Of a stretch of DNA of 43,282 nt, positions 889 to 41,644 are shown piece by piece. The translations under genes were made by a program, and so were the position numbers. Each line of letters opens with the position of its first letter. The first letter of the stretch is position 1. The DNA comes from a virus. Under the pieces are notes generated by a model, which did no database searches, was not told where the DNA came from, and saw only the letters and a list, made by a program, of their open reading frames with translations. Location of the stretch: positions 1 to 43,282 of IMG/VR virus record IMGVR_UViG_3300027985_001631; one strand, 5' to 3'.

Positions 889-1163
889 GGCTTATTGGTG
901 TGAGGGGTAAGCCTATCTTTTAACGCATCACAAGCATCTGTCCATCCTTCATTATACTCAGAGTAACTCAGTCTGTCTCCTGGCTTTTTATAGGGGTGAA
1001 GTTCTGATACTTCGTCAATTACCGACATGATATTTTCTTCTTTCTCTTCCGGCAGGGTGGAGAGAAAAGAGTCAATGTCTTTATCAGTTAATTGTAATAC
1101 ATGAATACTATTAACTTTATTTTTGAATTGTATAAGCAATTCCCTTTTTTCTTTTCGTTTCAC
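885..1163 (-). CDS. Hypothetical protein (92 aa)
   Basis: No family recognised. The N terminus is basic (MKRKEKRELLIQFKNK), followed by an acidic middle (LPEEKEENIMSVIDEV) and a C-terminal stretch with aromatic and acidic residues (YSEYNEGWTDACDALKDRL). It overlaps the stop of the radical-SAM gene by ATGA and the start of the zinc-ribbon gene by ATGA, so all three are probably translated together. Function unknown. Confidence 0.7.
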   Translation of the reverse strand: MKRKEKRELLIQFKNKVNSIHVLQLTDKDIDSFLSTLPEEKEENIMSVIDEVSELHPYKKPGDRLSYSEYNEGWTDACDALKDRLTPHTNKP

Positions 1164-1840
1164 AATATCAATCTTTTTAAATTATTCTTCTGAATTACAT
1201 TCGTAAACTGGTTTAATTCTGCTATAAGCTTTAAAACCTTTTCTTTTGAGGGTTCCGGGAGGTTATTATGTCCTGAGTCTGCACCTATATTTACAACCTC
1301 AGGTTCGCACATCCTTATCAGTTCTACCATCTCACCAAAATCAAAATCCAAAATTGGTTCAATAGTTACAAACTTTTTGATATTATAAATCTGACTCATA
1401 GAAAAAGCACGCTGAATAGTTACGGGGGCCGTACCCATTATTTCAGGATACTCCCTGTTTGTTTCTATGGTAGTGCAGAGTACTGTATTAATAGGAAATT
1501 CATGAAGAAAATCAATAAATCTCTGCGGATTTTTAGACTGAAATAAATATGAATTATTATTCCAGTATTTACACATATTTAATATGGTATAAATATAATG
1601 AGCCGGCACATCACTGGCAAACAAATCGTTTTGACCCACGACAAATACAGTTTTACTATTACCAAGTTTATCCTGTATCTGATTAAAATCAATACGTATA
1701 GAGCCAGAATATTTTTTTCTTACAGCTTCCCATCTCTTAGAGAGCTTATGAGTAGAACAATAAGAACACTTATGCGGACACTCCCCTGCAAGGGGGTTCC
1801 ATGTTCTGTCTACCCATTCATACATATTTGAATTACTCAT
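1160..1840 (-). CDS. Radical-SAM protein, phage Gp37/Gp68 (DUF5131)-like
   Basis: The N terminus reads YEWVDRTWNPLAGECPHKCSYC: a WNP motif followed by CxxxCxxC (Cys21, Cys25, Cys28), the signature that binds the 4Fe-4S cluster of radical-SAM enzymes. The WNP-plus-cysteine layout resembles the phage Gp37/Gp68 (DUF5131) family, related to SplB-like proteins. At 226 aa it is close to that family's usual size. Later strands include KKFVTIEPILDFDF and EVVNIGADSG, consistent with a TIM barrel. The substrate is unknown; modification or repair of a nucleic acid is an inference. It precedes three small genes, coupled by ATGA to the first. Confidence 0.8.
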   Translation of the reverse strand: MSNSNMYEWVDRTWNPLAGECPHKCSYCSTHKLSKRWEAVRKKYSGSIRIDFNQIQDKLGNSKTVFVVGQNDLFASDVPAHYIYTILNMCKYWNNNSYLFQSKNPQRFIDFLHEFPINTVLCTTIETNREYPEIMGTAPVTIQRAFSMSQIYNIKKFVTIEPILDFDFGEMVELIRMCEPEVVNIGADSGHNNLPEPSKEKVLKLIAELNQFTNVIQKNNLKRLIL

Positions 1841-10525: not shown

Positions 10526-10838
10526 TACTATTAAGTATGATATTTATAGCTCCATCATCCATAACACATACATCAGGAATTTTACGGCCCTCGTAATTGA
10601 TTATCCTCCTAACCTCTTCCGATAACCTTCGTGATAAAAAAATATATCTCCCGGGCCTCTCTGTTATTACAATATTGTCCTGAAGTCTTAAATCACATTC
10701 GGGACAAATTTCTTGATATTGATCTTCATTAGCACAGAGACATACAGTCCCTGTCTTTGCTGCCTCTTTTTTAAAATCCTCTCCACAGATACAGCACTTA
10801 CATTCAAATTTACCTATTACATTCTTTTCCATATTCAA
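10506..10838 (-). CDS. Cysteine-rich, probable zinc-binding protein (110 aa)
   Basis: Cysteines are spaced as CKCCICGEDF near residue 13, CLC near residue 33 and CPECDLRL near residue 45, which suggests one or two zinc sites. The rest is a charged alpha/beta segment (YIFLSRRLSEEVRRIINYEGRK). No family was recognised. It overlaps both neighbours by about 20-30 bases, and the Met at residue 3 is an equally good start. Its position next to the DnaA-like gene suggests a replication or regulatory role, but this is inference. Confidence 0.65.
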   Translation of the reverse strand: MNMEKNVIGKFECKCCICGEDFKKEAAKTGTVCLCANEDQYQEICPECDLRLQDNIVITERPGRYIFLSRRLSEEVRRIINYEGRKIPDVCVMDDGAINIILNSIDYEQL

Positions 10839-11109
10839 TTTCTATTACGTTATACATATCTAAATAACCATAAGCATTCGTCTGATTACCCTCTTCATCT
10901 ATTATACGAAAGAAGGTTCTAAAATCCTGTGAGGAGTGCCAGCCAGGATGAAGATCAATAGCCCTATCATCAAGCCTACCATTCTCCTTTATGTGACCTC
11001 TATTAATAAAGAAAGCCATATTACCTTCACAATCCCGACTGTACTCCAAATCCTTCTTCTTATCTCTATTAATATAAAAGTCTCCTAGAAAGCAATTTTG
11101 TGATATCAT
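10810..11109 (-). CDS. Hypothetical protein (99 aa)
   Basis: No family recognised. The sequence contains MISQNCFLGDFYINRDKKKD, a segment AFFINRGHIKENGRLDDRAI, and RTFFRIIDEEGNQTNAYGY. It looks like a small beta-rich soluble protein. It follows the 86-aa gene by one base and overlaps the zinc-binding gene by 29 bases, so it belongs to the same early operon. Confidence 0.6.
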   Translation of the reverse strand: MISQNCFLGDFYINRDKKKDLEYSRDCEGNMAFFINRGHIKENGRLDDRAIDLHPGWHSSQDFRTFFRIIDEEGNQTNAYGYLDMYNVIEIEYGKECNR

Positions 11110-11110
11110 A

Positions 11111-11371
11111 TTATTTACTATATAATGTTACCTTTAAACCTCTGCGAAACTTAAATATAGTCTTATCGGCCCCACCATCTGTTGCGGTATCTATAATACT
11201 ATCAACTATCCTTGCCCCAAGTATTTCAACCAACTTATGATAACCAATTAATTTATGTACCTTCTCTGTCCCCGTAAATCCTGATACCTTTATGCGCCAG
11301 TTCCTATTAATATAAGTACTTGAATTCCTTGTTGTTTGCTCTGTTTTGCCTGTGTTTTTCATGGTATTCAC
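11111..11371 (-). CDS. Hypothetical protein, first gene of the early operon (86 aa)
   Basis: No family recognised. A polar, Thr/Asn-rich N terminus (MNTMKNTGKTEQTTRNSS) precedes a basic body (NWRIKVSGFTGTEKVHKLIGYHKLVEIL) that ends in FKFRRGLKVTLYSK. The net charge is positive, so nucleic acid binding is possible. It is the first gene after a 205-base non-coding gap and probably heads the early transcript. The Met at residue 4 is an alternative start. Confidence 0.65.
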   Translation of the reverse strand: MNTMKNTGKTEQTTRNSSTYINRNWRIKVSGFTGTEKVHKLIGYHKLVEILGARIVDSIIDTATDGGADKTIFKFRRGLKVTLYSK

Positions 11372-11576
11372 CGTATTATTATGATGCTAACTTAAGAACA
11401 TTTTTTATTATACGAAACAAAATTGTATAATATTTTTTATTCTTCACGAATTTTTTTTCGTGCCAGTTATTTTAATTAAAAATGTGATTTAAGGGCTTTA
11501 AATATGATTCAGGTGTATTTATTCAACCTGATATTTATGACAACGGGAAAAGGGCTAATTTGGATTTTGGGTGAAT
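11372..11576. promoter_or_regulatory. AT-rich intergenic region with dyads between lysis and early blocks
   Basis: No ORF is visible. Two inverted repeats stand out: an 8-bp dyad TATTATAC/GTATAATA at 11406-11432 with an 11-base spacer, and a 6-bp hairpin CACGAA/TTCGTG at 11445-11462 around a T-rich loop. A weaker 6-bp dyad TCAGGT/ACCTGA at 11509-11531 lies just past the spanin-like gene and could end the late transcript. An exact TAnnTTTG is absent on the minus strand. The early promoter probably lies here, with the 8-bp dyad as a possible operator. Confidence 0.45.
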
Positions 11577-12185
11577 TTACTTCTTACTCCATATCCTTAC
11601 TCCTGTTTTAAGATAAAACCCGTTATTTATTGAATTGTATTCTACCCCAAAATATCCTTTTGGATATGTGAGTAGTATTTCTGGATTAAAAGTATTGAGT
11701 TTTACTGAAGTCCCTACCCCAATATAAAGGGAAGTATTTAATAACTCAGTTTTATTTGTAATTACCGATTGTGGTTGAAGGAGCTTATAAGTAAACCTGT
11801 GGCCCTTTAAGCTATTTTGAGAAATAGTATCTGTAAGCACGGCAGAGATAAGCGAGTCATTGAAACTCCTCTGATATGTATATTCAGCATAATACCTCCT
11901 AAGTATTTCAGTAGTATCTACCTTATTCGCTCTTATAATTGAGTCGATGACCTTTTTATCAATATATTTTACAGAGTCAATTTTCTCTACATAATAAGGA
12001 AAACTATCTGGAATTTCATGCGGGAGGGTGTCATAAATATAAACAGTGTCATGCAAGGGTTCTGGCAGGATGTTAGCCATTGGATACGTTCTATATCCAA
12101 GATAAAAAACCCCCGCCAGAACTATCACAATGAACGCAACGGCGAGCCAGTTTATAACCTTATGCAGCTGTGTCATAATTATCAA
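11577..12185 (-). CDS. Membrane-anchored, spanin (Rz)-like protein
   Basis: One N-terminal transmembrane segment (INWLAVAFIVIVLAGVFYLGYR) is followed by a periplasmic domain with many Asp, Tyr and Thr residues (HDTVYIYDTLPHEIPDSFPYY) and a helical part (VIDSIIRANKVDTTEILRRYYAEYTYQ). The C terminus is beta-rich (SLYIGVGTSVKL; YFGVEYNSINNGFYLKTGVRIWSKK). DUF6808-type proteins in Bacteroidota phage lysis cassettes look like this. It is the last gene of the cassette, where spanins often sit. Spanin activity is inference. The start may be Met4 (MTQLHKVI). Confidence 0.6.
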   Translation of the reverse strand: MIIMTQLHKVINWLAVAFIVIVLAGVFYLGYRTYPMANILPEPLHDTVYIYDTLPHEIPDSFPYYVEKIDSVKYIDKKVIDSIIRANKVDTTEILRRYYAEYTYQRSFNDSLISAVLTDTISQNSLKGHRFTYKLLQPQSVITNKTELLNTSLYIGVGTSVKLNTFNPEILLTYPKGYFGVEYNSINNGFYLKTGVRIWSKK

Positions 12186-22739: not shown

Positions 22740-23252
22740 TTACAGTTCAGATAACGCACCATTTCCATGTACGATCAATAAAATTCCCTTCCCATTTAAT
22801 GCCCTCTTAAGATTCAAGAAGTGCAGCTTTATTCTTTCTATATTCTTTGATAAATGAGGGTGGGTAATTAGATCAACACCAAATAAATGTATCTCTGAGG
22901 GAGAATGAAATTTATAAGCTACAGCACAGGCCACAAATGGGGAACAAAGAGACTTGGGAAGATCAGGGACATCTAAGTCACAGATATAACTCGGGTAATA
23001 TGATTGTAGAGTTATTTTTATAAAATCTCCTCTCTCAGACCATGAATTTAAATGGCTATAGAAGGATATAGGTTCACTGGTTTGAATCGCTCTCAATCGC
23101 TCTGGCGAAAAGCGAGTCGGCTCATCAACACAAACCACATAATCTGTTTTTACCCTGCTCCAAATATCGTTGCATCCAATTGATAAGTCGAACCTATCTT
23201 TATCATATAATGACAAGCTCTCTCCGAGTCCTAATATTGCTACTTTTGCCAT
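22740..23252 (-). CDS. Rossmann-like protein of the glycosylation cluster
   Basis: A 170-aa protein with a nucleotide-binding start (VAILGLGESLSLYDKD), then IGCNDIWSRVKTDYVVCVDEPTRFS, and a later strand-helix pair EIHLFGVDLITHPHLSKNIERI. The GLGESL...GCNDIW...VCVDEP pattern resembles DUF115/MptE-like and sialyltransferase-like Rossmann proteins often found in surface-glycan clusters. It overlaps the upstream glycosyltransferase gene by 13 bases and is last in the cluster, just before the gap that precedes the capsid genes. Exact reaction unknown. Confidence 0.6.
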   Translation of the reverse strand: MAKVAILGLGESLSLYDKDRFDLSIGCNDIWSRVKTDYVVCVDEPTRFSPERLRAIQTSEPISFYSHLNSWSERGDFIKITLQSYYPSYICDLDVPDLPKSLCSPFVACAVAYKFHSPSEIHLFGVDLITHPHLSKNIERIKLHFLNLKRALNGKGILLIVHGNGALSEL

Positions 23253-23932
23253 GCTCCCGGAATTTCTTTAAGTCCCTTAACTTTATTATTCATTCTGGTA
23301 GCACCAAAATCATGTTGAATATATTCAGGTTTTTGGGCTACCCAATTTATACCCTTTCCAGAACTATGTAATGTAAGGCCAGGGTAATGTTTTAATATCT
23401 TTTCAGATAATCCTAAATCATGAATACTAATCATTGCCTTATAAGAAGGTGCACCATGATGACAGTATGGCGCAAATCTCACATACTGCTTTATATTAAG
23501 TAAATGAAAATATGGATGTAGATAGGAGATGGGCCCATAATTCAAATGATGCTCATAGGTCCCATAATCAAACCCATCACGCCCTATTTGATGAATATAC
23601 CCAACACCATACGTATTCTCCTCCATTAACGCCAGCATTCCTGATACCGGGTTTTTAAGCATGATAATATCAGAATCAAATATTAATGCGTACTGAGTCG
23701 TGCATCTCTGTATTCCGTAATTCATTCCATTACCGTGCCCTATATTATACCCTAACTGATATACAGTATTATACTCCATCGCTGATAAGCTCTTTACATA
23801 TTCATAACACCTTGTCCCCTTTTCCGAACCATCAACAATAATTAAAGGGAGATTTGGCAAAAACTCCCTTACCGAATTATAACACCGTTGAAATATATCA
23901 GCTGTATTATATGTAACAACTATCCCTGTCAT
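23240..23932 (-). CDS. GT2-like glycosyltransferase (230 aa)
   Basis: A GT-A fold enzyme: TGIVVTYNTADIFQRCYNSV (donor-binding start), LIIVDGSEKG, GHGNGMNYGIQRC, then YALIFDSDIIMLKNP with the metal-binding DSD in place of DxD. The C-terminal half (YGVGYIHQIGRDGFDYG; PYFHLLNIKQYVRFAPYCHHGAPS) probably binds the acceptor. It would transfer a sugar from a nucleotide-sugar donor in the cytoplasm. It overlaps the upstream GT by ATGA and the Rossmann-like gene by 13 bases, so it is part of one coupled cluster. Acceptor not known. Confidence 0.8.
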   Translation of the reverse strand: MTGIVVTYNTADIFQRCYNSVREFLPNLPLIIVDGSEKGTRCYEYVKSLSAMEYNTVYQLGYNIGHGNGMNYGIQRCTTQYALIFDSDIIMLKNPVSGMLALMEENTYGVGYIHQIGRDGFDYGTYEHHLNYGPISYLHPYFHLLNIKQYVRFAPYCHHGAPSYKAMISIHDLGLSEKILKHYPGLTLHSSGKGINWVAQKPEYIQHDFGATRMNNKVKGLKEIPGAWQK

Positions 23933-24633
23933 AAGTATAAATTTGCATCTGTTCCTATAAGCTTTTTAAGATAATCCCCATTTGGGTCGTGAGCCATATT
24001 CATAGCCATAGAATGTCCTGCTCCAATACCCGGCCTTCCCGGTTGTCCTTTTATACCTATAGATAGGTTATTTGCCCGGAACAGATTTTTGCTTTTTGCG
24101 TGTTTAAATATGGAGATGTCGATATACTTTTCCATTCTGAAGGAATAAAATAAGGGTATAGCATCCCAAGTAAAACAGGTCTGAAACAAACTCGACCACT
24201 CTTCATTTTTATTTTCCACCCACCTGCGAGTAAATACGTTATAGTAAATAGTACACATTTCACCGGCAACCTGATACCCTTTTATTCTTTTTACCATCTC
24301 GGAAAGATAGTCAGCAGAGTAATAATCATCATCTTCGATGATGAATATAGCCTCTATTTCTTCCTTTGATGAAATATCTATAAGTGTATCAAGAGCAGCG
24401 ATTAAATTTCTGCCCTGTGTATTCATTCCCGGTTGCCATGAGGGCACTGGGTAAATCTTCTCTATTTTCCATCCGGGACGAAAAGAGTCATTTATAAAAT
24501 TAGTTGTTACGGGACTACAGTCATCTACAATAATCCATAAGACCTCACCAAGATAGGTCTGTTTTTTCATAAGCTTTGAACAGATACTAATCTGTTTGGG
24601 CCTTGCTCCTGTGGGTGTAATAAGTGCTATCAT
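23929..24633 (-). CDS. GT-A family glycosyltransferase (234 aa)
   Basis: The start MIALITPTGARPKQISICSKLM and VLWIIVDDCSPVTTNFI fit a GT-A nucleotide-sugar site; EAIFIIEDDDYYSADYLSEM holds the DxD metal motif. The C-terminal half includes WDAIPLFYSFRMEKYIDISIFKHAK and ends with Gly-rich KGQPGRPGIGAGHSM. It is coupled by ATGA to the epimerase upstream and the GT downstream. The acceptor is unknown; its place in the late operon suggests it modifies virion proteins or the host envelope late in infection. Confidence 0.78.
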   Translation of the reverse strand: MIALITPTGARPKQISICSKLMKKQTYLGEVLWIIVDDCSPVTTNFINDSFRPGWKIEKIYPVPSWQPGMNTQGRNLIAALDTLIDISSKEEIEAIFIIEDDDYYSADYLSEMVKRIKGYQVAGEMCTIYYNVFTRRWVENKNEEWSSLFQTCFTWDAIPLFYSFRMEKYIDISIFKHAKSKNLFRANNLSIGIKGQPGRPGIGAGHSMAMNMAHDPNGDYLKKLIGTDANLYL

Positions 24634-25541
24634 TTTTTATAAGTTTGTTTTAACCAGTTAATAGTTATTGGTATACCCTCCTCTAGTAATACCCTTGGGT
24701 TATGACCCAAATCATTTACAGCCTTTGATATATCAGGCAGTTTATTTACGGTATTATGTTTATCCTCCTGAAGATATTCAACCATTGATTTACTTTCAGG
24801 AATATATGAACGAATTATGTCGTTAAGTTCCCGCACACTTCTGAACTCAGTACCTCCGATATTATAAACTTCTCCGGGTTTAAAATTTTCACATACATTT
24901 GCCAGGGTAGGAATAAAATCATCAATAAACATAAACACTCTGTGATATCCCTCATAAACCTGATAAGGAAGATTAAACAAAGCGCGGTAACAGAATAAAC
25001 ACACAACACTCCTGTAATGATGATAGAACTCCCCGGGGCCGTAAGCATTGAAGAACCTGCAACGAACTGTATCAGTACCGTATCTCGCCTCAAAATTCTT
25101 TATCTGTAATTCATTGACGTACTTAGATATGGCATAATCATTCGGCAAACTTACTGCAAATTCATCTATGAGCTTTTCAGTAAGGGGTACAATAAATCCA
25201 TCCCCATATACTTCTGATGAACTGGCAAATATCAATCTGAATCCATACCTTACCTGTAATTCAAGAATGTTACGAGTTCCTATAGTATTCGTCATCCACA
25301 AGTTTTCGAAATACTCTTCCCCGTTTAATCTTCCGAACTCAGCTGCAAGGTGATATACATAATCAAATCCCTTTCTCATCACTCTTTCAAGTTGCCTTAT
25401 CTGAGTAACATCGGCCCGGATGTAATTATCTATCTGCTGATGCTGTAGGTCACATATCCAAACCTCATGACCCCTTGATCTTAATTCTTTAGCAAGGGGC
25501 CTCCCGAGAGTTCCCATGCCACCCGTTATTAATATCCTCAT
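24630..25541 (-). CDS. NAD-dependent sugar epimerase/dehydratase (SDR)
   Basis: An extended-SDR sugar enzyme: RILITGGMGTLGRPLAKEL (GxxGxxG NAD site at 7-13), VYHLAAEFGR, IFASSSEVYGDG (Ser near 108), and the catalytic pair in DYAISKYVNE (Tyr136, Lys140). A segment near residue 165 (FFNAYGPGEFYHHYRSVV) and VYEGYHRVFMFIDDFI resemble UDP-glucose 4-epimerase and GDP-mannose pathway enzymes. It probably makes the nucleotide sugar used by the neighbouring transferases. ATGA overlaps tie it to the genes on both sides. The exact product cannot be set from sequence alone. Confidence 0.85.
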   Translation of the reverse strand: MRILITGGMGTLGRPLAKELRSRGHEVWICDLQHQQIDNYIRADVTQIRQLERVMRKGFDYVYHLAAEFGRLNGEEYFENLWMTNTIGTRNILELQVRYGFRLIFASSSEVYGDGFIVPLTEKLIDEFAVSLPNDYAISKYVNELQIKNFEARYGTDTVRCRFFNAYGPGEFYHHYRSVVCLFCYRALFNLPYQVYEGYHRVFMFIDDFIPTLANVCENFKPGEVYNIGGTEFRSVRELNDIIRSYIPESKSMVEYLQEDKHNTVNKLPDISKAVNDLGHNPRVLLEEGIPITINWLKQTYKK

Positions 25542-26284
25542 AAATCTGTTGTTATTATGTGTAACGCCCTAAATTGATTACTTCTCTTAAGGTCCTCGTA
25601 AAGCTCTTTATTTTGCTTTATTAACTCCTGTTTATTTGGATTGTCCTGACCTGAATAATGCCACTGATGAATTACATGAGGTTCATCTATAATACTAACT
25701 TTAAGCCCAAGACATTTAGCCCGGTGCAAAAAATAATTATCTGCATAACCCCAGCCATACATGAATCTTTCGTCATAGCCATTCATGTGAATAATATTTT
25801 TTGCTGTTATGGCTGCACAGAATTCATACGCTACCGGTCTATATACTGAATGATTATACCATGCGTCATCCCCATCTTTATTAGCCCCTCTGTTATTATA
25901 TACCAAAACTCCCTTATCCATTGTTTCTTTACTTACAGAGTAACAGGCGAATGTAAAATACTGAGAATCATTAATCTCCGAAGCATACTTTATAATATCA
26001 CCCTTATGTATACATTCAGGATTCTGCAATATAATCACATCGGCTCCTTTTCTTAATGCACTGTGCAAACCCAAATTATAGACCGGGTCGGGATTACTCC
26101 ACTCTTTCTGCGTCAACCTTATCATTGTTACAGGATAATCAACATCAGGTATAACTACAAGGTAAGGGCTATTATCATCAATAACAATAACCTCAAAATT
26201 TTTATGCTCGCTCTTTATACTTAAGAGAGTTCTTGTCAACTGTTCCTGCCTATCATAATAAGGCATTACTACAACTACTTTCAT
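25538..26284 (-). CDS. GT2 family glycosyltransferase (248 aa)
   Basis: A canonical GT2: MKVVVVMPYYDRQEQLTRTLLSI, FEVIVIDDNSP, a nucleotide-binding region to residue 100 (GADVIILQNPECIHKG holds the DxD-equivalent NPE), and a galactosyltransferase-like C-terminal part (MNGYDERFMYGWGYADNYFLHRAKCLG) with an ED-like acceptor pair. It probably adds a sugar to a glycan or protein acceptor in the cytoplasm. ATGA overlaps join it to the preceding GT and the following epimerase. Confidence 0.83.
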   Translation of the reverse strand: MKVVVVMPYYDRQEQLTRTLLSIKSEHKNFEVIVIDDNSPYLVVIPDVDYPVTMIRLTQKEWSNPDPVYNLGLHSALRKGADVIILQNPECIHKGDIIKYASEINDSQYFTFACYSVSKETMDKGVLVYNNRGANKDGDDAWYNHSVYRPVAYEFCAAITAKNIIHMNGYDERFMYGWGYADNYFLHRAKCLGLKVSIIDEPHVIHQWHYSGQDNPNKQELIKQNKELYEDLKRSNQFRALHIITTDL

Positions 26285-35058: not shown

Positions 35059-35696
35059 TTTTTACCTCCCTTGCTTTTATCTGTCATTATTTTCTGGTAT
35101 CTCTCAGCGTATGCAGCCTGTTCTTTCTGTAGCATAAACCTCACAAGACATTCATCATAAGGTAACTGCATAACTTCATCTATACTTACTTTAAAGGAAT
35201 CCGACAGGAAGATTACCGCATTTAGATCAGCAAACTTGGAGAGCTTTTCAATACCAGCCGCAATTTCTTCAGCCGTTGTTTTCCTGAATAATAATTCTCT
35301 CTCCCTTGCTATCAGAGCATCCATTAACGCCACTAAGTGAGTAGCTATCGGATAGAGTTCTAACACCCTGCAATTTAATAGTTTTCTACCAAAATACAAT
35401 GCACTTTTTTCATCCCATTTTTTACCTGAGTAATATGGGTAATAATACCCACCTACATACCTGAATATAACACCAACGTCAGAACTCTCAGGTTGTGCAA
35501 AATGAATCCTTTGACCATAGGTAATTGTCTTACTGAACTCCTCTAGAGTCTGAGGTACTTTGTACTTAATATATCTGATCATTAATACTTCAGGAACCGG
35601 GAGCTTTGTAAGGCCATCAGAAAGACCCCCATACCTAGATGGGTATTTTATAAAGTCCCTCAACCTCAGTTTTCTTATTGGTTTTATCCTCTCCAT
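35055..35696 (-). CDS. Hypothetical late protein after terL (213 aa)
   Basis: No family recognised. The N terminus is basic (MERIKPIRKLRLRDFIKYP), the middle aromatic (GVIFRYVGGYYYPYYSG), and the C-terminal 100 residues helical (ATHLVALMDALIARERELLF; FMLQKEQAAYAERYQKIM). It overlaps terL by 13 bases. Helical proteins of this size between terminase and tail genes could be tail assembly chaperones; a frameshift-fused second product, the usual chaperone sign, is not seen. Confidence 0.6.
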   Translation of the reverse strand: MERIKPIRKLRLRDFIKYPSRYGGLSDGLTKLPVPEVLMIRYIKYKVPQTLEEFSKTITYGQRIHFAQPESSDVGVIFRYVGGYYYPYYSGKKWDEKSALYFGRKLLNCRVLELYPIATHLVALMDALIARERELLFRKTTAEEIAAGIEKLSKFADLNAVIFLSDSFKVSIDEVMQLPYDECLVRFMLQKEQAAYAERYQKIMTDKSKGGKK

Positions 35697-37000
35697 CTTT
35701 GCGGTGCTATATTTGGTTGTACGACCGGCTTCATACGCATAATAAATACATCAAGCCAATCAGGTGAATGCCCTATAACTTCCTTAATCTTTTCCTTTGG
35801 GAGTATCCTAAGCTTATTATCTTGGTCACTTTTATAGGTTTTTAGCATCCCCAGCTCCTGCATAATTGAATCTCTATTAATGTCAGACATATCACAGGCA
35901 ACAAACATGTATTTAATATTCTCAGCCAGCTTATACCCACACTCTGATTTAAGATTATAATATGCAGGGTCTACAGGCTTTGCCTGAGCAATAAACCCCG
36001 TACAGTTAAGATTATCAACAAGGCCACCCCCTACACCATCCTCATCAACTATAACATTACTGGCCTGTACTCCATACTTGACCCGATACGCATTTACTAT
36101 CTGCTGAAGATCAGTGATAGCACTCCAATCCTTTACTGTATAGTCTATCAATCTCATTCCTTCCCATACAGTAATTATTGCCCTGTCACTACCATACCGG
36201 GCAGCATCAACGATTATATACTTTGTGTCCTTCTCATCCTTCTCTATCTGAATATTCGTGAAAAGGTTATTGATATCAATAGAGTCTATTAAACACGTAG
36301 GGTCATCCTCATACTCCCAATTACCAAACATAAGCCTCTCCTTAGTACTCTTGTCTGAAATGCCTTCGAGCTGCTTTCTATAAATCTCAGCTGTATATGG
36401 ATTATCGGTAAAATAGGATGTTATAAAAGACTTCCCGGGAATAAGTAACCCGTTTTTATGAGGCAAGTAAAAATTACTGTATGTCCAATTCTTTTTGGGG
36501 TTTCCAGTGAGGGCCATCGTTGGTCTTATTCCCATCTCAACATTATTATGTCGCCCTATTCTGGTCTTGAGTACATCATACGCTAAAAAATGTATCTCTC
36601 CACACTCTTCAATTGCACCATCTGAATACTCTAGGGAACCAAACCGCTCATAATATGGGTCTGAAGGATAGTATTTTGCTTCTATAAGATCAATTCGGCT
36701 CCCATTGAAAAACTGTATATAATTATATTTACCGTTAAGAGTCCAATCCCCACGTGGTATATTATGATGCTTACAAACCTTATTCCATGTAATAAAGGTA
36801 GACATCATTAGTCTCTTTAATTCATCCCTTGCTATGAAAGATTTATAACCCGGATAGCGATAACAGTTTACTAGTCTAGATTCACAGAGCCACCATGTTT
36901 TTCCACCCCCGGCAGCTCCACCAAAAAACACCTCATCATTTTCTAGTAAAGCCCTATACGCTTGGTGTTGTTTTCTGGTCGGTGTTATCTTCAGTTTCAT
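35684..37000 (-). CDS. Terminase large subunit
   Basis: A 438-aa packaging motor. Walker A is FFGGAAGGGKTWWL (residues 26-38); the Walker B-like segment YSDGAIEECGEIHFLAYDVLKTRIGR (126-150) carries the catalytic Glu. The C-terminal RNase H-like nuclease shows YIIVDAARYGSDRAIITVW (Asp265), VIVDEDGVGGGLVD (Asp319 and Asp321) and GHSPDWLDVFIMRM. It cuts concatemers and pumps DNA into the prohead. It overlaps terS by 47 bases; the Met chosen leaves the full ATPase domain intact. Confidence 0.95.
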   Translation of the reverse strand: MKLKITPTRKQHQAYRALLENDEVFFGGAAGGGKTWWLCESRLVNCYRYPGYKSFIARDELKRLMMSTFITWNKVCKHHNIPRGDWTLNGKYNYIQFFNGSRIDLIEAKYYPSDPYYERFGSLEYSDGAIEECGEIHFLAYDVLKTRIGRHNNVEMGIRPTMALTGNPKKNWTYSNFYLPHKNGLLIPGKSFITSYFTDNPYTAEIYRKQLEGISDKSTKERLMFGNWEYEDDPTCLIDSIDINNLFTNIQIEKDEKDTKYIIVDAARYGSDRAIITVWEGMRLIDYTVKDWSAITDLQQIVNAYRVKYGVQASNVIVDEDGVGGGLVDNLNCTGFIAQAKPVDPAYYNLKSECGYKLAENIKYMFVACDMSDINRDSIMQELGMLKTYKSDQDNKLRILPKEKIKEVIGHSPDWLDVFIMRMKPVVQPNIAPQRWRG

Positions 37001-37382
37001 CAGGTACTATATATTCAATTCCAGTTATACGAGCCATCTCATCATGTACTATTTCACTCCTCTCTACATATCCCCTCTCTTTATTTCGTGTTTTATTAAA
37101 GAATATAACAGCAGCTGTGTCGGGTCTTTCTTTCCACTTTACCAGCGCCCCATTTCTATCAAGTTCCGGGATGCCCTTCATAAGTGTAAGCAGCTGACTC
37201 TCCCCAAAATCCTTTATCTCCTCCCGGGCTTCATTGATAAGTTCCGCAAACTCAGGGTCATTATCATACCACTCATAAAACGTCTTACGGGTTATACGGA
37301 AAGCTTTACAGGCAGCACTTATATTTGTGGCTGCCTTCCTGAAAAACTCAACGAACCTTTCTCTTTCCTCGGGTGAATACAT
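36954..37382 (-). CDS. Terminase small subunit
   Basis: A 142-aa protein with an N-terminal helix-turn-helix (ERFVEFFRKAATNISAACKAF, RITRKTFYEWYDNDPEFAELI) of the kind used by small terminase subunits to bind packaging sites. The central helices (DFGESQLLTLMKGIPELDRNG) and TAAVIFFNKTRNKERGYVER follow the usual TerS oligomerisation pattern. It is the first gene after the late promoter candidate and overlaps terL by 47 bases. The acidic tail (VPDETEDNTDQ) is typical. Confidence 0.88.
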   Translation of the reverse strand: MYSPEERERFVEFFRKAATNISAACKAFRITRKTFYEWYDNDPEFAELINEAREEIKDFGESQLLTLMKGIPELDRNGALVKWKERPDTAAVIFFNKTRNKERGYVERSEIVHDEMARITGIEYIVPDETEDNTDQKTTPSV

Positions 37383-37568: not shown

Positions 37569-38441
37569 TTATCGTTTATGAATTTCGGAAATTATCTTCG
37601 GGGTGGTATTTATCCATCTTATTGAATGGTGTAACCTTCTTTCTGCTGTCCCCATTAACCGGATTACTACAGAGGAAGGGTGATACATTACCGTATAGAA
37701 TGATTTAATATAGGTTCCCGCATCCAAATATACGTCAGTCATTCCCCCGGGGTTGGTCTGTGTGGTTACCTGTACTATCGAGACATTTGGAATAGTAAGA
37801 AATAAATCACCGATACTGCCATTCTTCACATAAGTGTTTACGTCCTCATTTACCCGGCCAACAAATTGAAATCTCCTTTCAGTACTCAGTATAAATGTAT
37901 TCATGGCTTTTCTCTTCATGCGGAGCTGTGCAGCACTACTGTAAGAACCCCCCATATAATCTCCCCCTTGTGCCATACAGATACTTTTAGCCGGAATACT
38001 TTTATAATAATCTATCAGAATATCAAGCACGGCATCAAGATTGAACATGCCTTTATAATTGTATTCCATATCCCCATCAAACCTGTACTGGAATTTTACA
38101 TAATCGTCATCCAGTTCCATGAAATACCTATAACCAAGTTTCTCAGCTATGTCAAAACATGCGTTCCTGGCATAAACTATTGTCTTACGGTTCTCAAAAT
38201 TATCCCCCTCATCAAATGTATCTGATATAGCTCTTTTATCAAACATCACTACCCGGTCCCCGTAAAGTTCATAATACCTGTCCCTCTGATTATCTTCATT
38301 GTCAATTACAATATAAAGAGGACCGGTATAGCCAGCTCTATTTAAAGAGTCGAGAGTTATTATATGGTCTGCTCTCCCATGTGTAAGGATAAAGACAGCG
38401 AAATCCTTATTTTTCATCTTCCTCTTTTTTGAATTGTTCAC
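37569..38441 (-). CDS. TAGT-like (TET-associated) glycosyltransferase, putative DNA glycosylation
   Basis: A 290-aa GT-A-like protein: DFAVFILTHGRADHIITLDSL, PLYIVIDNEDNQRDRYYELYG, FENRKTIVYARNACFDIAEKLGYRYFMELDDDYVKF (metal-binding DDD at 111-113), then RFQFVGRVNEDVNTYVKNG and IPNVSIVQVTTQTNPGGMTDVY. This order resembles the TAGT family that Iyer and colleagues linked to sugar addition on hydroxymethylated bases. No TET/JBP oxygenase or hydroxymethylase was seen here, so the base and donor are unknown. It overlaps the ParB-like gene; Met9 is an alternative start. Confidence 0.68.
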   Translation of the reverse strand: MNNSKKRKMKNKDFAVFILTHGRADHIITLDSLNRAGYTGPLYIVIDNEDNQRDRYYELYGDRVVMFDKRAISDTFDEGDNFENRKTIVYARNACFDIAEKLGYRYFMELDDDYVKFQYRFDGDMEYNYKGMFNLDAVLDILIDYYKSIPAKSICMAQGGDYMGGSYSSAAQLRMKRKAMNTFILSTERRFQFVGRVNEDVNTYVKNGSIGDLFLTIPNVSIVQVTTQTNPGGMTDVYLDAGTYIKSFYTVMYHPSSVVIRLMGTAERRLHHSIRWINTTPKIISEIHKR

Positions 38442-39237
38442 TTAATCTCTCAGTAAGTTTTACATACCCAAGCTCTATAGCCTTATTGAAGTCAATAATC
38501 ACAAGGGCCGAATCCTCCATAAGTAGTTGAATCTCTTTTGAGGAATGTGCATAATAGTCCGCTATCTTCTCATAATTAAATACAAGATGACGTGTAGCAG
38601 CCTTAAGAAGAAAATCCCTGACATCCTTAGGCATATCCATTTTCTGTATCACTTCAATAAGCTGTTCATACTTACCTGAGTCTACCAATGAACCTTCAGA
38701 GGGTTTTTCGTTTTTAGGTTCATATATCGGGCTTTTAATCTTTGTTGTGTAAAGTTGTAGCCCGGACTTACTTGTAACTACAGGAGGATTTATTATAAAA
38801 TCAGGAAGCTCTACACCGAAATCTAAAAGTATTTCGGGCTTAAAATCCTTTACCAACAAATCATAATCCCATTCTCCAAAAGACACATTGTCCTCTATAA
38901 TGAATGCTCTCCTTTCTTCTGTCGTGAGATTATCCGCTTTCTTTATCCACTTATCGGGAATATCTCCCTTGAATAGTGGTGCGAAATAAGCAAAGTTATC
39001 TTCCTTCTGAAGCTCCCTTAATTGCTCCTTAATCCACTCCTTTCCATTCTCAGCAATAACTACCAGAACCTTAAGGCGCATATTCCCACCAAGTACAATA
39101 CCCTTACCATCTATTACAATCTGTCTCAATTCAAGCATCTTTGGAAAGCTCAAAATACTTCTCATAAGCTTATTGAAATTTACGTCCCTTATAAGCCTTG
39201 GATTGTCCTCATTAAATAAAATTTCTGAAATTTTCAT
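38407..39237 (-). CDS. ParB-like (ParB/Srx fold) protein
   Basis: The N-terminal 60 residues, ILFNEDNPRLIRDVNFNKLMRSI, LRQIVIDGKGIVLGGNMRLKVL, match the ParB/sulfiredoxin fold with its GGNxRL box. Residues 118-150 (EERRAFIIEDNVSFGEWDYD; LLVKDFKPEILLDFGVEL) match the segment following ParB in phage DNA-modification proteins, where a methylase often follows. Here no methylase is fused. The C-terminal part is helical and ends acidic. ParB-like domains act as CTPases or nucleases; in phage modification clusters they may sense or guide DNA. It overlaps the TAGT-like gene by 35 bases. Confidence 0.75.
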   Translation of the reverse strand: MKISEILFNEDNPRLIRDVNFNKLMRSILSFPKMLELRQIVIDGKGIVLGGNMRLKVLVVIAENGKEWIKEQLRELQKEDNFAYFAPLFKGDIPDKWIKKADNLTTEERRAFIIEDNVSFGEWDYDLLVKDFKPEILLDFGVELPDFIINPPVVTSKSGLQLYTTKIKSPIYEPKNEKPSEGSLVDSGKYEQLIEVIQKMDMPKDVRDFLLKAATRHLVFNYEKIADYYAHSSKEIQLLMEDSALVIIDFNKAIELGYVKLTERLSEQFKKEEDEK

Positions 39238-40048: not shown

Positions 40049-40342
40049 TTACGGCAAACCCTCAACTATTCTTTTTTCAAGCCGGGCCATTTTAAAGATA
40101 ATACGGTCCTTTATCTTATCAGCTGGAAAAAGTATTTGAGCCTGCTCTATCATAATCCTGACATCAGCAATCTCATCAATTACAGCTGCAAACTTTTCCA
40201 CTGAACTTCCTCTCTCTCTCTTAAGTTTCTGAAGAGCAAGAGCGAGTTCTATACATTCCTCAATGATCATATCAATTTGGACTTCCCTCCCAAACTTATT
40301 GATAGCCATCTTTAATATTTCTGGTCTTATTTCTTCCGTCAT
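40049..40342 (-). CDS. MazG-like nucleotide pyrophosphohydrolase
   Basis: From the internal Met the protein is 97 aa: MTEEIRPEILKMAINKFGR, then MIIEECIELALALQKLKRER and VIDEIADVRIMIEQAQ. The EExxE helix and DExxD-type helix are the metal-binding motifs of MazG/all-alpha NTP pyrophosphatases, which hydrolyse NTPs or dNTPs to monophosphates. Phage MazG proteins can alter the nucleotide pool or ppGpp level. The longer frame (from 40366) adds only MIYHINIA and overlaps the SSB gene. Confidence 0.78.
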   Translation of the reverse strand: MTEEIRPEILKMAINKFGREVQIDMIIEECIELALALQKLKRERGSSVEKFAAVIDEIADVRIMIEQAQILFPADKIKDRIIFKMARLEKRIVEGLP

Positions 40343-40349
40343 GGCTATA

Positions 40350-40790
40350 TTAATATGGTAAATCATCAGAGGGTCTTTGTCTTAGATCATCCCGGGATTC
40401 TTTAGCTCCTCCATTTTCCCGGGGTGTTTCTTTACTTGCATTCCCATCCTGACTCTTTCTTTTCGAATCACTCACCTTACGGGCATATCCCACAACCTCA
40501 GTTATCCATTTTTTTTCACCTTCACGTGTCTCAAAACTTCTGGTGTGTATTGTTCCCTCAACGTAAACTATATCCCCGGCATCAACATTCTTTTCCAGAC
40601 TCTTTGCAGAATCACCCCAAACAACAATATTATGCCATTCTGTCTCTTGCCTCCACCCGCTTTCTTCTCTGTCATCCTTAAAACTCTCCCAAGTTGCGAG
40701 TGTGAATTTTGCTATACTCTTTCCGCTTTGCGTCGTGTGTAGTTCGGGCTTTTTGCCCACTCTTCCAATTAAAGTTACTTTGTTAATCAT
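40350..40790 (-). CDS. ssb: Single-stranded DNA-binding protein
   Basis: From the internal Met the protein is 146 aa. The OB fold is clear: NKVTLIGRVGKKPELHTTQSGKSIAKFTLAT, TEWHNIVVWGDSAKSLEKNVDAGDIVYVEGTI, and RSFETREGEKKWITEVVGYA. A polar linker follows and ends DDLPY, matching the SSB C-terminal tip (DDDLPF in E. coli) that recruits partner proteins. It coats single-stranded DNA in replication and recombination, fitting the Rad52-like/RecE-like pair. The longer frame (to 40838) would overlap the upstream gene more deeply. Confidence 0.92.
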   Translation of the reverse strand: MINKVTLIGRVGKKPELHTTQSGKSIAKFTLATWESFKDDREESGWRQETEWHNIVVWGDSAKSLEKNVDAGDIVYVEGTIHTRSFETREGEKKWITEVVGYARKVSDSKRKSQDGNASKETPRENGGAKESRDDLRQRPSDDLPY

Positions 40791-41203: not shown

Positions 41204-41644
41204 TTAGAATTTATTATACGGTTTTAACTGAGAATAATCGGACTTTAGAATCTCAATTACCTCCATATTCCGATTATATATTTTCATACTCCTTCTGTCC
41301 CCGGTTTCCCATTTCCGGTGTGCCCGGCTGCATAGGATATTAATATTACGGGGGTCAAGGGCCATTTCAATGTGTGCCCCTCTTGATAAAATGTGGCTCA
41401 TAAATTCAGCCTTATAAAATTCAAGGGGCAAATTATGCTCTTCACATAGTTGAGGTTTATGCTCCCAAACCCAATGGAAAAATTTATCCCTAGCCTTTGG
41501 GTCAGAGTTACTACCAAATAGTTCACTCTGAATCTCTACCCTCAACTTAATATCCATATCAATAAAGGGGTCAAGCAATGGCTCAACCCCTTCTGAAAGG
41601 AGATTATTATATTCAAGTCTTGTAGAAACTTTAGTTCTTTTCAT
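41204..41644 (-). CDS. HNH endonuclease-like protein
   Basis: The C-terminal half has the HNH pattern SHILSRGAHIEMALDPRNINILCSRAHRKWETG: His84, Asn100 and His109 as the three core residues. The usual zinc cysteines are mostly missing; only Cys105 is at the LC-x-x-x-H site. The N-terminal half is helical and charged. It may act as a recombination or packaging nuclease (a NinG-like role) or as a homing nuclease remnant; location away from terminase favours recombination. It overlaps the next upstream gene by 14 bases. Confidence 0.72.
   Translation of the reverse strand: MKRTKVSTRLEYNNLLSEGVEPLLDPFIDMDIKLRVEIQSELFGSNSDPKARDKFFHWVWEHKPQLCEEHNLPLEFYKAEFMSHILSRGAHIEMALDPRNINILCSRAHRKWETGDRRSMKIYNRNMEVIEILKSDYSQLKPYNKF

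Follow-up and report, generated by a model that had tools for sequence, protein, structure and literature searches.

A TAGT-like glycosyltransferase gene that overlaps a ParB-like gene just ahead of the terminase genes of a virus raises the question of what its product glycosylates and where the acceptor comes from. The locus belongs to the IMG/VR virus record IMGVR_UViG_3300027985_001631, whose 43,282 bases were analysed as a whole and are called the window below; the genes discussed are all on the minus strand. The original prediction saw in the pair a possible new DNA-sugar modification and left the choice between a hidden maker of the substrate base and a different target. The locus has the following features:

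37569..38441, minus strand: TAGT glycosyltransferase of GT-A fold, 290 aa from a GTG (PF20691, E 4.3e-33; phrog_842, E 2e-71)
38103..38111, minus strand: DDD metal/donor motif, TAGT residues 111-113 (98/100/97% conserved in 62 relatives)
37842..37850, minus strand: NED motif, TAGT residues 198-200 (D200 invariant in 62 relatives)
37626..37637, minus strand: RxHH motif, TAGT residues 269-272 (97% at each position in 62 relatives)
38407..39237, minus strand: ParB-like two-domain partner protein, 276 aa, overlapping the TAGT start (phrog_620, E 3e-18)
38803..39237, minus strand: N-terminal ParB/Srx-fold domain of the partner, residues 1-145 (Z 9.8 to ParB-CDP; phrog_498, E 7e-12)
38443..38760, minus strand: C-terminal partner domain (CTD), residues 160-265, with conserved RH, YYAH and LVIIDF motifs
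36954..37382, minus strand: terminase small subunit, terS (phrog_309, E 9e-10)
35684..37000, minus strand: terminase large subunit, terL (phrog_979, E 3e-17)

The predicted reading frames, the DDD motif, the overlap with a ParB-like neighbour and the position just upstream of terS and terL all held, and the profile search placed the TAGT in PF20691 with 115.4 bits against a cut-off of 27.5. The true start of the TAGT is probably the in-frame ATG at 38417, which agrees better with the relatives and shortens the overlap with the ParB-like gene to 11 bp, a length typical of them. TerL of the window was Pfam-negative and was assigned through phrog_979. A MazG-like pyrophosphohydrolase (40049-40366, minus strand; phrog_2245, E 2e-21) and an HNH endonuclease (41204-41644, minus strand; phrog_144, E 1e-7) are also encoded in the window.

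The AlphaFold2 model of the TAGT, based on a 48-row alignment, reached a pLDDT of 89.9 and is that of a GT-A glycosyltransferase. Among the PDB structures it matched GnT-I (Z 13.8 over 198 residues, 3.9 Å) and GalNAc-T2 (Z 13.7 over 231 residues, 4.7 Å), while sequence searches of the PDB yielded nothing useful. Residues D111-D113 and D200 were conserved in 97-100% of the 62 relatives, and the catalytic residues were kept from archaeal to Gram-positive viruses; by analogy with GT-A/GT2 enzymes, D200 is presumed to be the catalytic base. D111, D112 and D200 were also common to T6 ggt, the TET-linked protein of P12024L and a Vibrio phage TAGT, and with Y56, R92, G211 and G233 they were the only near-invariant positions of the clade that occurred in all three outgroups. 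The RxHH motif marks the CTD-linked clade; neither the T6 nor the P12024L protein showed it, and Vibrio 1.124.O has a WHH. In the TAGT tree, T6 ggt and the TET-linked TAGT fell outside the CTD-linked clade and the three outgroups split off at an SH-aLRT of 80, with a weakly supported deep order (0.076 at the all-CTD node).

The partner protein consists of two domains, an N-domain of residues ~1-145 and the CTD of about 105 residues (~160-265). The N-domain has a ParB/Noc fold: ParB-CDP structures matched over 86 residues at 1.9 Å, the profile of the protein matched Noc/Spo0J at E 1e-11, and the GxxR motif of ParB is partly retained. The same type of domain forms the N-terminus of phage DNA methyltransferases, and the N-domain of the E. 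coli homologue matched the N-terminus of PADLOC MTase_II at E 1.5e-38. Structure matches of the whole protein covered mainly residues 1-122 and left the C-terminal part without a convincing counterpart in the PDB; the CTD itself had no significant match in Pfam, NCBIfam or the PDB. Its matches in BFVD were mostly ParB-like or unnamed, which says little on whether the fold is new. The CTD is more conserved than the N-domain, as tblastn alignments in Vibrio, Nocardia and haloarchaeal viruses covered the CTD only.

Two conventional roles for such a protein were rejected. A ParABS plasmid partition system was discarded since no ParA family appeared among the Pfam matches of the 63 window proteins and the C-terminal part seems unlike ParB, at least by its PDB matches. 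A search of a plasmid collection gave no match. Membership in a known anti-phage defence system was discarded because PADLOC models matched the TAGT at best with E 0.006 and a CTD-only protein not at all, the N-domain alone leading to MTase_II.

Scans for TAGT genes returned 76 loci from viral_contigs and 41 from GTDB genomes, the latter in Bacteroidota, Pseudomonadota, Bacillota, Verrucomicrobia, Spirochaetes, Cloacimonadota, Acidimicrobiaceae, Kiritimatiellae and one Falkowbacteria MAG. A CTD reading frame lay adjacent upstream in 121 of 132 TAGT loci, a set that counts the window twice (under its own name and as L001) and includes some near-duplicate contigs; a pair that recurs this often is not due to chance. 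The eleven exceptions comprise five contig ends (L024, L081, L083, L085, L086), a TAGT fragment (L087), a locus with an intervening gene (L107), L010 and the TET-linked L131, whose TAGTs belong to other clades, and the Lactobacillus copies L011 and L132, both of which have decayed. In the reverse direction, a scan with the CTD, of whose at least 449 matches the best 80 were confirmed, provided 78 new loci, 77 of which had a TAGT directly downstream. The 78th carries about 3.2 kb of other, insertion-like sequence between the CTD and a longer TAGT-containing reading frame (L209:5491-11265). The CTD is the universal companion of this TAGT clade. The ParB-like gene that had been predicted as the partner does adjoin the TAGT, but the key partner is the CTD behind an exchangeable ParB domain; likewise, the pair beside the terminase is real, but the unit is widespread and the terminase-side setting is not universal.

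The order ParB-CTD-TAGT-terminase was kept in Porphyromonas phage005a (L009), despite a TAGT of only 26% identity. Two tandem TAGTs were present in seven loci, all with the DDD motif, and L276 contains four in a row, an arrangement that would allow sugar chains or several sugars. In L255, L221 and L225 the whole CTD-TAGT pair is tandemly duplicated, each TAGT having its own CTD. The median pI values of 8.76 for the TAGT and 4.92 for the CTD are suggestive only.

No TET/JBP enzyme, member of another tested 2OG-oxygenase family or thymidylate-synthase-like enzyme appeared in Pfam scans of the 63 window proteins. The entire record was also searched for PF12851, PF00303, PF13640, PF13532, PF05721 and PF00145, and none of these families was found. 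The original prediction had been right in its dilemma. Across cassette-related records, PF12851 and PF13640 were each found in 0 of 28, and PF00145, PF13532 and PF05721 each in 0 of 31. PF00303 occurred in 2 of 28, as a thymidylate synthase of the 191-kb phage pv27 (E 1e-70) and as a match below the cut-off in G011. These sets include records without an intact cassette (L010 and L011 in the first sets, P12024L in the second), and some of the IMG/VR records may be incomplete. The TET search recovered its positive control, PF12851 of P12024L, at E 3e-29, and PF12851 was also absent from 14 cassette-bearing host genomes (G019-G032). Without a tested hydroxylating family, the acceptor may be ordinary DNA, the hydroxyl may be supplied by the host or the CTD, or the target may be a protein.

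All reading frames of at least 50 aa were compared by phmmer (E 1e-3) among six unrelated viruses: the window, the Lactobacillus phages c5 and jlb1, the haloarchaeal HHTV-2, the Nocardia phage NTR1 (minus its last 6.4 kb) and a Rac prophage region of E. coli. The ParB-CTD protein and the TAGT were the only families present in all six, and none other was present in four or more, although a fast-evolving third component could be missed at this threshold. The pair is therefore a self-contained two-gene cassette across unrelated viruses, and the lack of a conserved third phage gene suggests that the acceptor is most likely a group which ordinary DNA already has or which the host provides.

The ParB N-domain is exchangeable. 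Among 207 non-redundant partner proteins, 172 had it and 35 consisted of the CTD only (~131-162 aa). A TAGT tree of 112 rows needed eight changes to account for the CTD-only state, at least five of them forced by starred branches, and the N-domain has accordingly been gained or lost at least five to eight times. In place of the N-domain, the CTD-only proteins carry a short N-terminal tail with [LMI]F in 32 of 35, against a mean of 8.5 and a maximum of 18 in shuffles, and with Q.{2,4}[LMI]F in 19 of 35, against a mean of 1.1 and a maximum of 5; the linkers of N-domain proteins had the longer motif in 0 of 170 and [LMI]F in 28 of 170. The consensus of the bacterial clamp-binding motif is QL[SD]LF, which the tail resembles. 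The glutamine is absent from 16 of the 35 tails, and this counts against a role as tether.

Of the 35 CTD-only loci, 19 encode a sliding-clamp homologue, detected with a local profile from four seeds, at a distance of no more than 6 kb; of the 172 loci with the N-domain, none does (Fisher p 1e-17, a statistic that ignores descent, in a set where a second scan had enriched clamp-type loci). Three further clamps, in three loci, matched phrog_947 (E 1e-22 to 1e-31), and one of them is followed by a clamp loader. When only the five independent pairs defined by starred branches were considered, a clamp accompanied loss of the N-domain in 2.2 of 5 and never the opposite (p ~0.5), which is too few to decide. 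Other CTD-only loci adjoin helicases (L007, L093, L210) or a primase-polymerase (L042). N-domain loci mostly precede terminase genes. Among the next-large genes of 92 of 118 loci, from which near-duplicates had been dropped by hand and in which both N-domain classes were taken together, Pfam recorded Terminase_6N 32 times, Terminase_3 19, TerL_ATPase 11, Terminase_2 6 and GpA_ATPase 5; as these families overlap, 32 to 73 of the genes belong to at least one of them, to which Pfam-negative terminases like that of the window must be added. Judging by its sequence, the peptide of the CTD-only proteins would bind the sliding clamp, and the ParB-like domain would load onto DNA, although the occurrence of ParB-type folds in sulfiredoxin-type proteins speaks against the latter.

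In E. coli the pair corresponds to ynaK and a gene that NCBI names GREB1-related or hypothetical. It resides in Rac-type prophages, where the lysis genes and trkG precede it and terS follows. Of 5,426 complete E. coli genomes, 1,559 were matched by a cassette query of 1,675 bases, and in 885 of them the match covered 80% or more of it; in K-12 and BL21 the match spans only the 189-212 bases of a ynaK stub. Deletion-damaged versions of the c5 cassette were found in the Lactobacillus phages LL-Ku, where ParB aa 1-36 are fused in frame to TAGT aa 69-256 (L132:90-938), and Ld17, which has an internal deletion and has lost ParB and part of the TAGT (L011:75-833). The unit is hence dispensable. A function as essential packaging factor was rejected on the grounds of this decay and of the CTD-only forms in replication modules.

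We consider the chances nearly balanced that the pair is a self-contained module of two genes which glycosylates viral DNA, is tethered by a clamp and manages without a phage hydroxylase. In this module the TAGT would be the GT-A catalyst, drawing on a nucleotide sugar that normally comes from the host, and the CTD would be its obligate subunit. The CTD would carry the DNA-tracking element, usually the ParB/CTPase-like N-domain and sometimes the short clamp-binding peptide. Since the genes of the ParB form lie with packaging genes, that form would add the sugar once the DNA has been replicated, either ahead of packaging or in the course of it; the clamp form would do so at the replication fork. 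Resistance to host nucleases is a likely benefit. We know of no enzyme that glycosylates an unmodified base, which counts against a direct attachment of the sugar.

With respect to the donor, the window has a cluster at 23243-26284 (minus strand), flanked by structural genes, in which three genes for GT2 glycosyltransferases surround one for an NAD-dependent sugar epimerase/dehydratase (E 5e-39); this cluster could provide the donor sugar or serve a virion or host glycan. In L128 a UDP-galactopyranose mutase overlaps the TAGT stop (10834-11979, E 1e-72), and the donor of that system is therefore probably UDP-galactofuranose.

We infer that DNA is the acceptor. Four points favour an action on DNA: two alternative DNA-clamp modules accompany the enzyme, the N-domain is common to DNA methyltransferases, the nearest characterised relatives within PF20691, such as T6 ggt, modify DNA, and the unrelated T4 alpha-glucosyltransferase also binds its clamp (PMC13216743).

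An unlikely alternative, though the strongest of those considered, is a protein target: the TAGT would glycosylate, for example, its CTD partner (at a conserved tyrosine), a capsid protein or the terminase, and the role of the partner would be limited to aiming the enzyme. The tyrosines Y163, Y172 and Y229 of the CTD are indeed conserved in 94-98% of the 62 relatives. The structural GT-A neighbours of the TAGT model are mostly glycan or protein glycosyltransferases, including protein GalNAc- and GlcNAc-transferases, which counts against a DNA module, and the E. coli members bear the name of GREB1, whose human form reportedly glycosylates a receptor protein. However, an enzyme with a protein acceptor would hardly need clamp and ParB modules, the nearest characterised relatives act on DNA, and the terminases were not joined among the six viruses and differ in type, so that they would be a poor common substrate.

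It is quite improbable that the system follows the classical two steps, in which an unrecognised enzyme of the phage or host, perhaps the CTD or a radical-SAM neighbour in some phages, hydroxylates the base before the TAGT adds the sugar, in the manner of TET- or T-even-type systems. As far as we are aware, all characterised DNA glycosyltransferases use hydroxylated bases, and the CTD offers the near-invariant polar residues R216, H217 and D249; H231 is conserved in only 82% of the 62 relatives, which renders a metal site using it unlikely. A Radical_SAM Pfam match directly followed the TAGT in 9 of the 92 next-large genes. Radical-SAM-type genes, recognised by a CxxC motif or by Pfam, lie directly 3' of the TAGT in L008, L100, L108, L115, L117, L118, L121, L123 and L124, mostly of gut Bacillota/Bacteroidota, and it is possible that they are the third enzyme of that branch and make the acceptor there. 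The window itself encodes a DUF5131/radical-SAM protein (1160-1840, minus strand, with the DUF5131 match at 1262-1819; E 8e-15), which was rejected as a conserved acceptor maker given its presence in 1 of 28 cassette-related records. Against two steps also stand the absence of the six hydroxylase, synthase and C5-methylase families from the window and the cassette records (28-31 per family), pv27 and the sub-cut-off G011 excepted, and of a third family common to the six viruses.

A relic or neutral passenger lacking a current function is very improbable. The decay in LL-Ku and Ld17 and the ynaK stub of K-12 and BL21 would suit it, but the TAGT is under purifying selection (dN/dS 0.04-0.10 in four non-saturated enterobacterial comparisons of different sequences, most other pairs being saturated), its catalytic residues are conserved and tandem paralogues retain the DDD motif. 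The reading suggested by phrog_842 and RefSeq names, a T-even-like beta-glucosyl-HMC-alpha-glucosyltransferase that adds a second sugar to glucosyl-hydroxymethylcytosine, is hardly tenable and was rejected, as it requires a PF00303 dCMP hydroxymethylase and an alpha-GT, the window and 26 of 28 records lack PF00303, and T6 ggt lies outside the CTD-linked clade with few near-invariant positions in common.

Several known systems resemble parts of the cassette. TAGTs of TET-JBP systems, such as that of the Nonlabens phage P12024L, share the label PF20691, the DDD motif and the catalytic aspartate; they lie beside PF12851 in P12024L and in a TET-TAGT-methyltransferase operon in L131. The window differs from them in its separate clade and its CTD partner, with TET/JBP in 0 of 28 records. 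T6 ggt shares the family name, the PHROG label and a part in DNA hypermodification, but it requires glucosyl-hydroxymethylcytosine (gp42 and alpha-GT), whereas the window is devoid of a PF00303 homologue, and a 30-kb stretch of T6 contained no CTD match. Phage DNA methyltransferases with a ParB-type N-domain (phrog_498, PADLOC MTase_II) combine the same domain with a DNA-modifying partner; in the cassette, by contrast, the N-domain is fused to the CTD, and a glycosyltransferase encoded by its own gene is the enzyme. The T4 alpha-glucosyltransferase is a clamp-bound DNA glycosyltransferase like the one proposed here, but of GT-B fold and unrelated. It co-purified with the gp45 sliding clamp, and this interaction was not the main cause of the linkage ratios (PMC13216743). 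In the CTD-TAGT family, clamp contact would be made through the tail of the CTD partner.

The name TAGT reportedly goes back to a 2013 NAR paper, which may mention ParB neighbours. Lone TAGTs are not new, since a 2026 NAR paper counted TAGTs without alpha- or beta-GT in 288 of 753 phage genomes (PMC13216743). That paper makes no mention of ParB, and its accessible part did not contain the CTD, the clamp class or the cassette. The CTD-TAGT unit, the ParB/clamp alternatives and the prevalence in E. coli were not found in the accessible parts of the literature searched, which included PMC13390438, PMC13216743, PMC8651126, PMC12373910 and PMC7326821.

If a unit free of the tested hydroxylating enzymes recurs across bacterial and archaeal viruses, either the acceptor chemistry, a hydroxylase or a protein target must be new. 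DNA glycosylation, as far as it is known to us, requires that the base be hydroxylated first. It is a tentative and still rather doubtful proposal that the cassette represents a new class, a ParB- or clamp-tethered glycosyltransferase with a dedicated subunit that places sugar directly on unmodified DNA without prior hydroxylation, in bacterial and archaeal viruses and in about one sixth of complete E. coli genomes. The unnamed CTD gains a clear partner, and ParB-like domains and sliding clamps become linked as alternative tethers of one enzyme. The full-length copies in Rac-type prophages, compared with the stub of K-12, render the system testable with two genes in a laboratory strain. The cassette may explain the restriction resistance of some prophages and may supply a one-step DNA-labelling enzyme.
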